35,388 bases of DNA, taken from assembly GCA_021323795.1 (NCBI GenBank), contig JAJPKH010000127.1:1-35388 (forward strand), given 5' to 3'. The position numbers and the translations under genes were made by a program. The first letter of the stretch is position 1. Each line of letters opens with the position of its first letter. This document shows positions 19,430 through 23,276 of the stretch, in pieces. This stretch comes from Acidiferrobacteraceae bacterium. GTDB lineage: Bacteria > Pseudomonadota > Gammaproteobacteria > Acidiferrobacterales > Sulfurifustaceae. Under the pieces are notes generated by a model that did not search any database, was not told the origin of the DNA, and saw only the letters and a list, made by a program, of their open reading frames with translations.

Positions 19430-19559
19430 TTTGCGATGCGCATGATGCTGAGAATGATGACGGACGCCCGTTCAAATGCTCGTCGCCGTCCATCCGTGAC
19501 GGCCCCCCGATCATCGGTAAGAGATTGTTGTCGCCCCGCCTCCGGACTATGTTTGCAGT

Positions 19560-19886: not shown

Positions 19887-20975
19887 ATGCCGCGAGGCAA
19901 AACGGGCGAACACGAGCGTATGCCACACGCACAAACGCACGAACGACATTTTCTACCGGATTTCGGATCCTTCGGCATGGCGATCCGGTTCATCTTTCTC
20001 GCCGAGATGATCGCCATCATCATCACCATCGGACGCAACCCCGTGTTCGATGAACAGGCGTGGCAGGACCTGAACCTCTTGTCCGCCTTCGCGATTTCGA
20101 TCTCGATGTGCAGCGTCGTCATTTTGAAACTCGCCGCGCCGCTGCTGCGGCGCACCTCCGTCGCGTTCGGCTCGGTGTTGGTGATACTGCTGCTGCTCCT
20201 CGTGACGGCGATCGGCACGGACGGCATGATCTTCGCGCTGCACGACCTCGGCCTGATTCCGGAGCGCTGGCCGGCGTGGCGCGAGTCGCTCATCATCCGC
20301 AGCCTCATGGTCGCGCTCATCATCGGGGTGCTCGGCGTGCGTTACTTCATCGCGCAGCATCAGGCGGAAGTCGAAGGCCGCGCGCAGCAGGAGGCGCGCA
20401 TGCAGGCGCTGCAATCGCGCATTCGGCCGCATTTTCTCTTCAACAGCCTGAACAGCGTGGCCAGCCTCACGCGCAGCAACCCGGAGAAGGGCGAGGCCGT
20501 GCTGCACGACCTCGCGGATCTCTTCCGCGTACTTCTCGCCGATGCGCGTAAGCTCGTCCCGCTTTCGGCGGAGCGCGAGATCTCGCGCCAGTATCTCGAG
20601 ATCGAGAAGATCCGCCTGGGCGACCGCCTGCACGTGCAATGGAACGTGAGTCCCAATATCCCGCGCTCGGCGCTCATTCCGGCCTTGACCCTGCAGCCGA
20701 TATTGGAGAACGCGATTTACCACGGTATTGAACCGCGCTTCGCAGGCGGAATGATCAAAATCGACATGTGGGCCGAGGGAGAAACGCTCAATATTCTGAT
20801 CAGCAATCCGCTGCCCGATGTCCGCAAAGACACGCGCGGCAAAGGCAACAAGATTGCACAGGAAAACACCCGCCAGCGCCTCATCACACAGTTCGGCTCG
20901 GCGGCAAGCCTGGCGGCGTTCGAAGAGGGCGGGCAGTACCACGTTAAAATCAAAATGCCGATCGTGAGGGGGTGA
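19887..20975 (+). CDS. AlgZ/FimS-like LytS-type sensor histidine kinase (copy 1)
   Basis: A 362-residue membrane kinase. Four or so membrane segments lie between residues about 30 and 155, followed by a His_kinase domain with QALQSRIRPHFLFNSLNSVASL (His182 is the predicted phospho-site) and an N-box LTLQPILENAIYHGI. The usual DNG and GxGLxN nucleotide-binding boxes are replaced by SNPLP and GNKIAQENTRQRL, as I recall for the atypical AlgZ/FimS group. The N-terminal HERHFLPDFGS motif recurs in copy 2. An ATG at 19920 is an equally possible start. The partner is presumably the AlgR-like regulator at 22521. Confidence 0.87.
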   Translation: MPRGKTGEHERMPHAQTHERHFLPDFGSFGMAIRFIFLAEMIAIIITIGRNPVFDEQAWQDLNLLSAFAISISMCSVVILKLAAPLLRRTSVAFGSVLVILLLLLVTAIGTDGMIFALHDLGLIPERWPAWRESLIIRSLMVALIIGVLGVRYFIAQHQAEVEGRAQQEARMQALQSRIRPHFLFNSLNSVASLTRSNPEKGEAVLHDLADLFRVLLADARKLVPLSAEREISRQYLEIEKIRLGDRLHVQWNVSPNIPRSALIPALTLQPILENAIYHGIEPRFAGGMIKIDMWAEGETLNILISNPLPDVRKDTRGKGNKIAQENTRQRLITQFGSAASLAAFEEGGQYHVKIKMPIVRG

Positions 20976-20984
20976 GGCCGGGAA

Positions 20985-21112
20985 TTCGCCAATGCACTTA
21001 ACGTGGATTGGCGCGGCCGAACGGGCTGGCCAGGAGGCCAGCCCCCCCGATTTCGCGCGAAGCAGGGATAGCGCAGCGCGAAACAGCCGGAGTTTTCGCG
21101 AATGCACTTAAC
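20985..21112. repeat. Direct repeat pair bounding a hairpin module between the kinase genes
   Basis: TTCGC(C/G)AATGCACTTAAC occurs at 20985-21002 and again at 21095-21112, exactly 110 bp apart with one mismatch in 18. Between the copies are two hairpins: GGGCTGGCC/AGGA/GGCCAGCCC (21023-21044) and TTTCGCGC ... GCGCGAAA (21051-21083). CGCGAAA at 21077-21083 can also pair with TTTCGCG at 21094-21100, giving an alternative fold. The arrangement resembles a modular intergenic repeat. Confidence 0.6.
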
Positions 21113-21265
21113 ACGTCAGCAAAAAACGGCCACGGAGGGCCGGGCTGAGGGTTATCCAAGACACAGGCGATGCGCCACGGATGGTGGGGCCGAATTTCAG
21201 CGACGCGGCGGCACGCGTAATCTGCGTTCGCGCCGCCGGACACCCGCCCCGGAGGGCCGGGCGGG
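21023..21265 (+). other. Array of hairpins with GGA in the apical loop
   Basis: The 418-nt spacer 20976-21393 holds no gene I believe in. It carries several short hairpins: loop AGGA on a 9-bp stem (21023-21044), loop ACGGAG on CGGCC/GGCCG (21127-21142), loop ACGGAT on CGCC/GGTG (21173-21186), and loop CGGA on GCCC/GGGC inside a CCCGCCC/GGGCGGG arm (21243-21265). A CCGGA also lies in the loop of CGCGAAA/TTTCGCG (21077-21100). GGA in hairpin loops is the binding signature of CsrA/RsmA proteins; a REP-like repeat is the alternative. Confidence 0.4.
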
Positions 21266-21393
21266 GACCCGCGAGGCTACAAAAGCCGCGCCAGAGCTGC
21301 CGGGCAAGACCGTGGAGACCGGCATTACGAGAACCGATGTCAGGCGACGGATCACTGACTACAGTGAAGAGATGAGGATTACAAGGTACAAAC

Positions 21394-22524
21394 GTGGAAC
21401 TCCTAACGGTTCGCCATAACGTTCAGGCATGGCTGCGCGCCGCGAGCGACTTCGTGGGCTTGAGCCAGCCAACGGCGGAACCGGCGGAGACGGACGACGG
21501 TTTCCTGCCGGACTTCTGTTCCGCGCCGGTGGTGCTGAATGTCGTGATCATCGCGGAAATGTTCGCGTTCATGGCGACGCTCATCACGCGCCGGATTTCG
21601 GTGAACATCCTCGAAGACCTGCTGTTGATCTCGCTGTTCGTGCAATGGGTGGCGATCACGAGTGTCGCCGCGCTGTGTTACGCCCGTCGATACCTGAACC
21701 GTTTGCCCAAGGCGCGGGCGCTCGGCATGGCGTATGCGCTGCTACTGCTGGTGACGCTCCTGGTCAGCGAAGCGGCCGTCTGGGTGCTATACCTGCTCGG
21801 TCGCATCAGCACGCCGCGGCCCGAGTGGCACTTGTACTTCCACATTCAGAACTTCACGGTCAGCCTGCTGGTCAACGGCCTCGCGCTGCGTTACGTTCTC
21901 GCCAAGCACGAGCTGCGTCAGCGCACGCTGTCGGAAGCGCGCGCCAAGATTCAGGCGCTGCAATCGCGCATCCGCCCGCATTTCGTGTTCAACAGCCTGA
22001 ACATCATCGCGAGCCTCACGCGCAACGAACCGGCGCGCGCCGAAGCCGCCGTCGAGGATATGGCGGATCTTTTTCGCATGATGCTGTCTGAGGACGAACA
22101 GCTGGTGCCGGTTAAGAAGGAAATCGACGTCGCCAAGAAATACCTGGCGCTCGAGAATTTACGGCTCGATCAGCGTCTACACGTCGAATGGGACGTCGGC
22201 ACGTTTCCGCGCAAAGCCGCGGTGCCGGTGCTCACGCTGCAGCCGTTACTGGAAAACGCAGTGCGCCATGGAATCGAGGCGCTGCCAACGGGAGGAACCG
22301 TTGCCGTCAAGCTCTGGGAAGAGAACGGCAACATACATATACGCGTGGACAATCCTTATCCCACGAAATCGAAGACCCGACCGGATACTCCCAGCCGCTC
22401 GCTCGACAACATCCGCCAGCGGCTGCAAAGCCACTACGGCGAAACCGCACAACTCGAGGCGCGGGGGGAAAACGGTCAGTTCAGCGTGACGGTGGTCATC
22501 CCGATGCGCGGAGGAAACGTATGA
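21394..22524 (+). CDS. AlgZ/FimS-like LytS-type sensor histidine kinase (copy 2)
   Basis: A 376-residue paralogue of the kinase ending at 20975. It starts with GTG, with AAGG 7 nt upstream. The N-terminal DDGFLPDFCSAPVVLNVVIIAEM leads into four or so membrane segments (about residues 45-170). The kinase core reads QALQSRIRPHFVFNSLNIIASL (His196) and LTLQPLLENAVRHGIE. Again DNP and SRSLDNIRQRL stand in place of canonical G-boxes. The TGA overlaps the regulator's ATG (ATGA), so this copy is translationally coupled to the AlgR-like gene and is probably the primary partner. Confidence 0.9.
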   Translation: MELLTVRHNVQAWLRAASDFVGLSQPTAEPAETDDGFLPDFCSAPVVLNVVIIAEMFAFMATLITRRISVNILEDLLLISLFVQWVAITSVAALCYARRYLNRLPKARALGMAYALLLLVTLLVSEAAVWVLYLLGRISTPRPEWHLYFHIQNFTVSLLVNGLALRYVLAKHELRQRTLSEARAKIQALQSRIRPHFVFNSLNIIASLTRNEPARAEAAVEDMADLFRMMLSEDEQLVPVKKEIDVAKKYLALENLRLDQRLHVEWDVGTFPRKAAVPVLTLQPLLENAVRHGIEALPTGGTVAVKLWEENGNIHIRVDNPYPTKSKTRPDTPSRSLDNIRQRLQSHYGETAQLEARGENGQFSVTVVIPMRGGNV

Positions 22525-23276
22525 GAGTGCTGATCGTAGACGATGAAAAGCTGGCGCGTGACCGCTTGCGCGAGCTGCTGGCAGATATCGGCGGTTATAC
22601 CGTCATCGGCGAGGCCATGAACGGCGCCGAAGCGGTGGAGAAGGCGTCGGAGCTGAACCCTGACGTTCTGCTCATGGATATTCGCATGCCCGGCATGGAC
22701 GGGCTCGAGGCGGCGATGCATTTGATGGGCATGGAGCACCCGCCGAGCGTGATTTTCACGACGGCCTACGACCAGCACGCGCTCGACGCGTTCGACGTCA
22801 ACGCCGTCGATTACCTGCTGAAGCCGATTCGCAAGGACCGCCTGGCGAACGCGCTCACCAAGGCGCGCAAGCTCACCATGAAGCAGGTGCAGGAGCTGCA
22901 CCACGCGCGCAAGGAAATGCCGACACGCACGCACATCAGCGTGCATCTGCGCGGCAACATCCGGCTGGTGCCGGTACCGGAAATTATTTACTTCCTCGCC
23001 GACAGCAAGTACGTCGTGATACGCACGACCAACGAAGAGCATCTGATCGAAGACTCGCTGGTCAATCTGGAAAAGGAATTCGGCGACCGGTTCCTGCGCG
23101 TGCACCGCAACGCCCTGGTCGCCACGCAGTTCATCAAAGGCATCGAGAAAAGCCCCGCGGGAACGTGGCAGGTGAACCTGCGCGGCGTCGACAAGAAACT
23201 CGACGTGAGCCGGCGACACACCGCGTCCGTGCGACGCTGGGCGCGTAATCGGCCGGCGGTCGCGGCGACGGGGTAG
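22521..23276 (+). CDS. AlgR-like LytTR-family response regulator
   Basis: A 251-residue regulator. The receiver domain (about 1-120) has the acidic pocket VDDE, phospho-acceptor Asp53 in LLMDIRMPGMDG, Thr in FTTAYD and Lys in DYLLKPI. The LytTR DNA-binding domain (about 138-245) has IYFLADSKYVVIRT, EDSLVNLEKEFGDRFLRVHRNALV and LDVSRRHTASVRRW. GGAGG lies 5 nt before the ATG. Homologues in Pseudomonas (AlgR) control alginate, twitching and other surface traits. Position between an AlgZ-like kinase and hemC is the conserved one, but I leave the gene symbol blank because regulon identity is unknown. Confidence 0.92.
   Translation: MRVLIVDDEKLARDRLRELLADIGGYTVIGEAMNGAEAVEKASELNPDVLLMDIRMPGMDGLEAAMHLMGMEHPPSVIFTTAYDQHALDAFDVNAVDYLLKPIRKDRLANALTKARKLTMKQVQELHHARKEMPTRTHISVHLRGNIRLVPVPEIIYFLADSKYVVIRTTNEEHLIEDSLVNLEKEFGDRFLRVHRNALVATQFIKGIEKSPAGTWQVNLRGVDKKLDVSRRHTASVRRWARNRPAVAATG

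Follow-up and report, generated by a model that had tools for sequence, protein, structure and literature searches.

The window analyzed here is a 35,388-nt stretch of an Acidiferrobacteraceae genome, and within it 418 nt separate two paralogous kinase genes, hairpins being densely packed from the stop of kinase 1 (20975) to the start of kinase 2 (21394). The closest relatives of the MAG from which it comes place it among the gammaproteobacteria, in the Acidiferrobacterales / 'Candidatus Muproteobacteria' group. The genes belong to a string composed of argH (on the opposite strand), the two kinases, an AlgR-type regulator, hemC, and hemD, and the argH-algZ-algR-hemC-hemD order is one that we take to be Pseudomonas-like. 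What is this array, and does it bind CsrA? An initial annotation, made from the sequence, had offered two readings, a CsrA/RsmA-binding RNA and a family of REP-like intergenic modules, and both are right in part: the array is made of a REP-like repeat that carries seemingly paired CsrA sites. The interpretation that we favor, with somewhat more confidence than doubt, is that the array consists of insertions of a small dispersed repeat between kinase genes that once almost touched, and that a single CsrA dimer would bind the RNA of two of its hairpins, HP2 and HP3.

The hairpin array and the kinase junction

Five GGA triplets on the forward strand of 21023-21265 occupy loops of 4-7 nt, each closed by four or more Watson-Crick pairs, compared to a mean of 0.46 in dinucleotide shuffles, none of which (0 of 500) reaches five. 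The claim that at least four hairpins display GGA-type loops is therefore correct and well above chance. The coordinates originally assigned to the array hold for these GGA hairpins, but its true start lies further upstream, with the first repeat copy at 20971 (Table 1). Similarly, the proposal that the loops carry the CsrA signature is sound for ACGGAG and ACGGAT, which fit the ANGGAN hexaloop, but not for the strongest hairpin, CC-AGGA-GG, and only two of the five GGA hairpins in the window have ANGGAN hexaloops. The 431-nt stretch folds better than its shuffles on the forward (z -2.9) and reverse (z -3.5) strands alike, so that the strand cannot be chosen on folding energy alone. A separate hairpin, GCCGTC-ACGGATG-GACGGC, is located in the gap between argH and kinase 1 (19485-19503, reverse strand); on that strand it precedes argH, and its loop displays ACGGAT.

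Table 1. Features of the array and of the neighboring genes in the window
Feature	Positions	Strand	Basis
Kinase 1, AlgZ/LytS-type, PF06580	19887-20975	+	Pfam E 3e-23; tblastn to relatives
Repeat copy 1: GGTGAG head, HP1, GAACG spacer, HP2	20971-21049	+	Covariance model R1, 83.4 bits, E 1e-13; fold z -4.4
HP1 of copy 1: 5-bp outer helix, 6-nt 5' bulge, 11-position inner helix (one mismatch), UUAAC loop	20976-21018	+	Fold -22.6 kcal/mol; covariation in 12 copies
HP2 of copy 1: 9-bp stem with an AGGA tetraloop, no ANGGAN hexaloop	21023-21044	+	Fold -20.1 kcal/mol
Hairpin with AGGGATA in an inner loop	21051-21083	+	Similar sequence 3' of HP2 in other copies (L004-L006); fold
Second HP1, truncated, left half only (GCCGGAGTTTTCGCGAATGCACTTAAC)	21086-21112	+	Direct repeat D2
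HP2 of older copy: CGGCC-ACGGAG-GGCCG, canonical ANGGAN hexaloop on 5 bp, GGA at 21134	21127-21142	+	Sequence and fold
HP3 of older copy: CGCC-ACGGAT-GGTG, ANGGAN hexaloop, GGA at 21179	21172-21186	+	Sequence; congener junction (L290)
Third HP1-like hairpin, degenerate (GGCGG...CCGCC)	21207-21237	+	Fold; no R1 match, assigned by eye
HP2-like hairpin with CGGA, degenerate, competing pairings possible	21243-21265	+	Fold
Kinase 2, second AlgZ/LytS-type paralogue	21394-22524	+	Pfam E 1e-23; 39% identity to kinase 1
AlgR/LytTR response regulator, same gene string	22521-23276	+	PF00072 and PF04397

Comparison with related genomes shows how the junction came to be so long. In ten relatives with both kinases, kinase 2 begins 4 to ~17 nt after kinase 1 ends, these gaps having been read by eye with one start codon uncertain, and more genomes of the family display a near-gapless junction too. 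Because the kinases of these relatives nearly touch, the 418-nt array is an insertion, and the suggestion that it is a private or conserved leader of kinase 2 is not sustained by the 4-17 nt gaps of other genera. The first repeat copy encloses the TGA stop of kinase 1 (20973-20975); the TGA of the GGTGAG head is itself the stop codon, as it is for further genes that we have seen. In a congener (G033) the junction measures ~155 nt and holds a decayed HP1 and, after it, HP2 and HP3 with their GGAs 45 nt apart, and for this reason the insertion probably predates the split of the two species and was present in their ancestor, the lineage of the window probably having acquired further copies afterwards. 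No flanking direct repeat was recognized at the window copy.

A dispersed repeat of three hairpins

Pieces of the array recur at intergenic places elsewhere in the same genome. A genome-wide search for the modules, which the initial annotation had proposed as a check, finds 29-34 copies in the source MAG (3.35 Mb) when a covariance model is used, and the same approach detects the repeat in 19 of 20 genomes of its family, with up to 55 copies each, and in 22 of 369 sampled gammaproteobacterial genomes. The hairpins are thus copies of a dispersed repeat, as the REP-like alternative had anticipated. The element is non-coding, ~100-130 nt in size, and composed of three hairpins. HP1 is a bulged palindrome. 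In the family at large its outer helix has 5 bp and its inner helix 11 bp, a 6-nt bulge interrupts the 5' side, and the loop is UUAAC, with a variant that has GUCCRGUGGAC at the tip; GAACG and HP2 follow, and HP2 and HP3 present C-ANGGAN-G hexaloops on freely varying stems. When HP1 and HP2 of 12 copies are aligned, 96% of cells are paired and 17 of 24 pairs have changed on both sides, which none of 500 shuffles matches. We found no paper describing the element in the open-access literature, and no matches were obtained in viral contigs (one exact pattern) or plasmids (one query). The TAACTGA repeats of Beggiatoaceae (PMC4679880) were judged different by their description alone.

Many insertions lie in tRNA genes, either sense in the D-loop (AGCTCAGTTGG^A) or antisense in the T-arm (GG^ATTCGAACC), and in the latter case the tRNA transcript would expose UCC rather than GGA. 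Others lie in the first codons of protein genes. At such insertions a direct repeat restores the end of the gene. The direct repeat is formed by the flank that ends in GG ahead of GTGAG, which recurs 3' of the element: the scoring threshold is reached at 31 of 117 junctions compared to 12-13 at shifted junctions (p 0.004 against 13), which leaves ~20 copies above background. These direct repeats span ~17-50 nt, longer values coming from tandem units, and are present beside about a fifth of the copies, often at tRNA genes. From these repeats we infer target-site duplication by transposition. Copies also occur in groups. In one complete genome (locus L320, G075:C1, ~1015894-1017225), seven tandem units of ~145 bp, each comprising HP1-HP2-HP3 and the 5' part of a tRNA-Met gene, are followed by the intact tRNA-Met and by inverted copies. 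At two loci of genome G049 (L238 and L192), the units repeated in tandem measure 215 and 207 bp and duplicate, together with the element, the beginning of rng (RNase E/G family) and of a response-regulator gene, respectively, and in genus g10 (L222-L226, L200, L201, L257) two inverted copies are found ~150 bp apart, typically one of GGCGAAGCGG type and one of GGCGAGCCGGAA type.

Paired CsrA-type loops

The source genome encodes two PF02599 genes, so that a missing CsrA homologue, which the initial annotation had named as fatal to CsrA binding, is not the situation here. The canonical CsrA gene adjoins lysC, and its product (CsrA1) aligns over 57 residues to solved CsrA/RsmA/RsmE chains; the second, divergent protein (L002, C159:5540-5731) has 70 residues with an insertion, and is encoded near helix-turn-helix-like and lytic-transglycosylase-like genes. 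High-affinity CsrA/RsmE sites are ANGGAX hexaloops placed directly on a stem (PMC4005645). Among 112 distinct matches to the repeat, ~98 have a clear HP2, GGA is in the loop of 65 of these, and 59 of the 65 are ANGGAN hexaloops on 28 different stems; in the window, the hairpins at 21127-21142 and 21172-21186 have this form and the AGGA hairpin at 21023 does not. Downstream of HP2 we count 26 ANGGAN hairpins, assigned as HP3, compared to 0-5 for most other loop patterns, the count of 37 for.TCC.T being due to inverted partner copies. In 56 of 59 cases the GGAs of HP2 and HP3 are spaced 43-46 nt apart, mostly 44-45 nt, and in the window 45 nt, although this constancy may stem from common descent instead of function. 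A CsrA dimer is able to bridge two sites that are 10-63 nt apart, and very stable stems are rare in SELEX-selected CsrA ligands (PMC7652899), the latter a point against CsrA binding here.

The loops are kept in more distant copies as well. In other gammaproteobacterial families ANGGAN appears in HP2 and HP3 of most inspected loci on unrelated stems, the spacing being 28 or 44-45 nt, and in four genera the two loops at the rng site remain ANGGAN with different N positions, as judged by eye. Other copies have lost them or carry something else. A second HP2 class, ~24 copies of which many come from the MAG's own genus, shows GATTTT-like loops, which are no CsrA site and make up about a quarter of HP2 copies. 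Only 11 of 27 analyzed copies in the window's own genome have two ANGGAN hairpins, and at a pstB-phoU-like junction in that genome (genes named by eye from sequence) both loops are lost. In congener G033 (L242-L256), the HP2 class with GATTTT- or GGTTTT-like loops on GGGTGC stems predominates.

Within a 706-kb sample of the MAG, the density of C-ANGGAN-G hairpins (stem of 5 bp or more) is 13 times higher in intergenic DNA than in coding DNA (p 5e-7), a ratio that may be inflated because the sampled stretches include contigs picked by motif matches. The pattern GCCANGGATGGC is only mildly enriched (11 vs 2 for the reversed control) because the stems vary. GGA-loop hairpins in general are modestly over-represented in intergenic DNA (16.5% vs 10.2%), and the enrichment resides in the repeat family. 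Moreover, one-sided pair changes yield G-U rather than A-C in HP2 (18:6, p 0.02) and are nearly balanced in HP1 (19:16), a small bias in an alignment fitted to an RNA model that itself favors G-U, and one that hints at RNA-level selection on HP2.

Taken as a whole, the proposal that the array is a CsrA-binding RNA is strengthened by the presence of CsrA and by the retention in the family of the CsrA/RsmE hexaloop at constant spacing, but it applies to only two loops of the window. The best support, in our assessment, is that loop letters, closure, and spacing coincide with a site defined experimentally elsewhere, and we infer that HP2 and HP3 may be bound jointly in RNA by one CsrA dimer. Any copy transcribed within an operon or a tRNA transcript would then provide a landing site for CsrA through HP2-HP3. 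At the kinase junction, a dimer clamping HP2-HP3 of the intercistronic RNA would create an RNA-protein knot behind the kinase 1 stop and ahead of the kinase 2 start, which might uncouple or modulate translation of kinase 2, and all transcribed copies jointly would form a distributed sink for part of the CsrA. The GTGAG head and HP1 probably have a role in spread of the element. Such a dimer on HP2-HP3 combined with the distributed sink appears to be the most likely mechanism for the window, and control of kinase 2 by CsrA is a possible, predicted consequence.

The orientation of copies relative to genes bears on whether these sites are read as RNA. Gene context was available for 94 copies: in 60 the upstream gene runs on the same strand as the copy and in 34 on the opposite strand (p 0.01), and the classes comprise 44 tandem sense, 27 antisense, 16 convergent, and 7 divergent; genes ending within 20 nt of a copy number 14 in the same sense and none in the opposite one. 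These counts and p-values are approximate, since genes were called by a home-made codon scorer and copies that share a locus do not count as independent. With about a third of the copies antisense to the upstream gene, an explanation by host regulation alone is too narrow. The initial annotation had held that the same modules at many untranscribed loci would refute the CsrA reading, and the 34 antisense copies, which may be untranscribed, go part of the way towards this.

A purely selfish DNA repeat, in which the hairpins, GGA loops included, are recognized as single-stranded DNA by some transposase and the likeness to CsrA sites is coincidental, is in our view an unlikely explanation. The excess of direct repeats at GG^GTGAG is what it expects, as are tandem and inverted copies, the occurrence of both orientations, and the small overall number of G-U pairs. 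It does not account for the correspondence to an independently defined protein site (A-GGA letters with free N, C-G closure, and spacing of 28 or 44-45 nt), for the confinement of the G-U bias to HP2, or for the preponderance of same-sense upstream genes.

To return to the paired CsrA sites, a selfish-looking repeat may spread such sites into genomes and tRNA genes, since its copies typically carry two CsrA-type hairpins at a fixed distance. A broader proposal, which we put forward tentatively, is that a mobile, RNA-structured element disperses CsrA-dimer sites at fixed spacing, prefers the D-loop and T-arm of tRNA genes, duplicates the gene end so that the target survives, and rewires or titrates the Csr network, possibly spreading through an RNA stage.

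Csr titration is usually attributed to a few dedicated small RNAs. If the repeat carries paired CsrA sites, an insertion can rewire the Csr network, and copy number becomes a determinant of free CsrA. In addition, the family constitutes a series in which nature has varied the stems and N positions of CsrA-type hairpins, and it presents a mobile-looking element whose direct repeats at tRNA genes are long.

Mobilization and relation to known systems

We tested RAYT, reverse transcriptase, and Cas1 genes for association with copies, and none is associated. Reverse transcriptase and Cas1 are absent from most copy-rich genomes and are unconvincing as mobilizers, as is RAYT, for which copy numbers seem correlated but whose genes lack flanking copies. 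That the array belongs to a REP/BIME family mobilized by a RAYT transposase (PF01797) is very improbable on these data: the palindromes are dispersed and extragenic, and genomes of the family without RAYT have 0-6 copies compared to up to 55 in those with one, but a copy lies within ~1.5 kb of only 1 of 30 RAYT loci, which is the chance level, the head is GGTGAG with a 6-nt bulge instead of GTAG, there are three hairpins and not one, and long flanking direct repeats are unexpected for this transposase class (PMC2817692).

Equally improbable is the dedicated CsrB/RsmZ-type titrating RNA that the initial annotation had envisaged between the kinases, because the five GGA-loop hairpins in 243 nt that speak for it include only two ANGGAN hexaloops, the same kind of module occurs at ~30 loci, and no Rfam family matches at gathering score. 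A scan of 20900-21450 against Rfam to E <= 10 returns no Csr family and only chance-level matches, for example 6C on the reverse strand, and the covariance model of TwoAYGGAY (RF01731) has no match in the same interval up to E 10.

The repeat nevertheless shares features with several known systems. Like CsrB, CsrC, and RsmX/Y/Z, it has several hairpins with ANGGAN loops and could, as predicted here, offer two sites to a CsrA dimer; unlike these small RNAs it exists as dozens of dispersed copies of two sites each, includes the additional bulged palindrome HP1, and has no Rfam match in the window. CsrA sites have been predicted on the TwoAYGGAY RNA motif (PMC4333381), which has been proposed to bind CsrA. 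Its two hairpins with AYGGAY-like loops are similar to those described here, whereas the present element is a mobile-looking repeat with HP1 that the Rfam model does not match in the window. REP and BIME elements are likewise extragenic palindromes in tandem and inverted pairs, but our repeat has neither the GTAG head nor a RAYT neighbor, and instead possesses ~17-50 nt direct repeats and ANGGAN hairpins. With MITEs and other non-autonomous repeats it has in common that it is short, non-coding, dispersed, and flanked by direct repeats (in the ~20 copies above background), although the single unit has no terminal inverted repeats, its direct repeats are long and variable in length, and the checks on RAYT, reverse transcriptase, and Cas1 genes brought no parent transposon to light. 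Finally, the 178-bp repeats of E. coli tyrT/rttR differ in that their sequence is unrelated by eye and no ANGGAN pair is seen at the one E. coli locus compared. They are nonetheless similar in that the units lie at a tRNA gene and repeat its 3' end, and the E. coli K-12 rttR junction (L344), GG^ATT in the T-arm of the tRNA, is the place at which the antisense insertions of this family occur.
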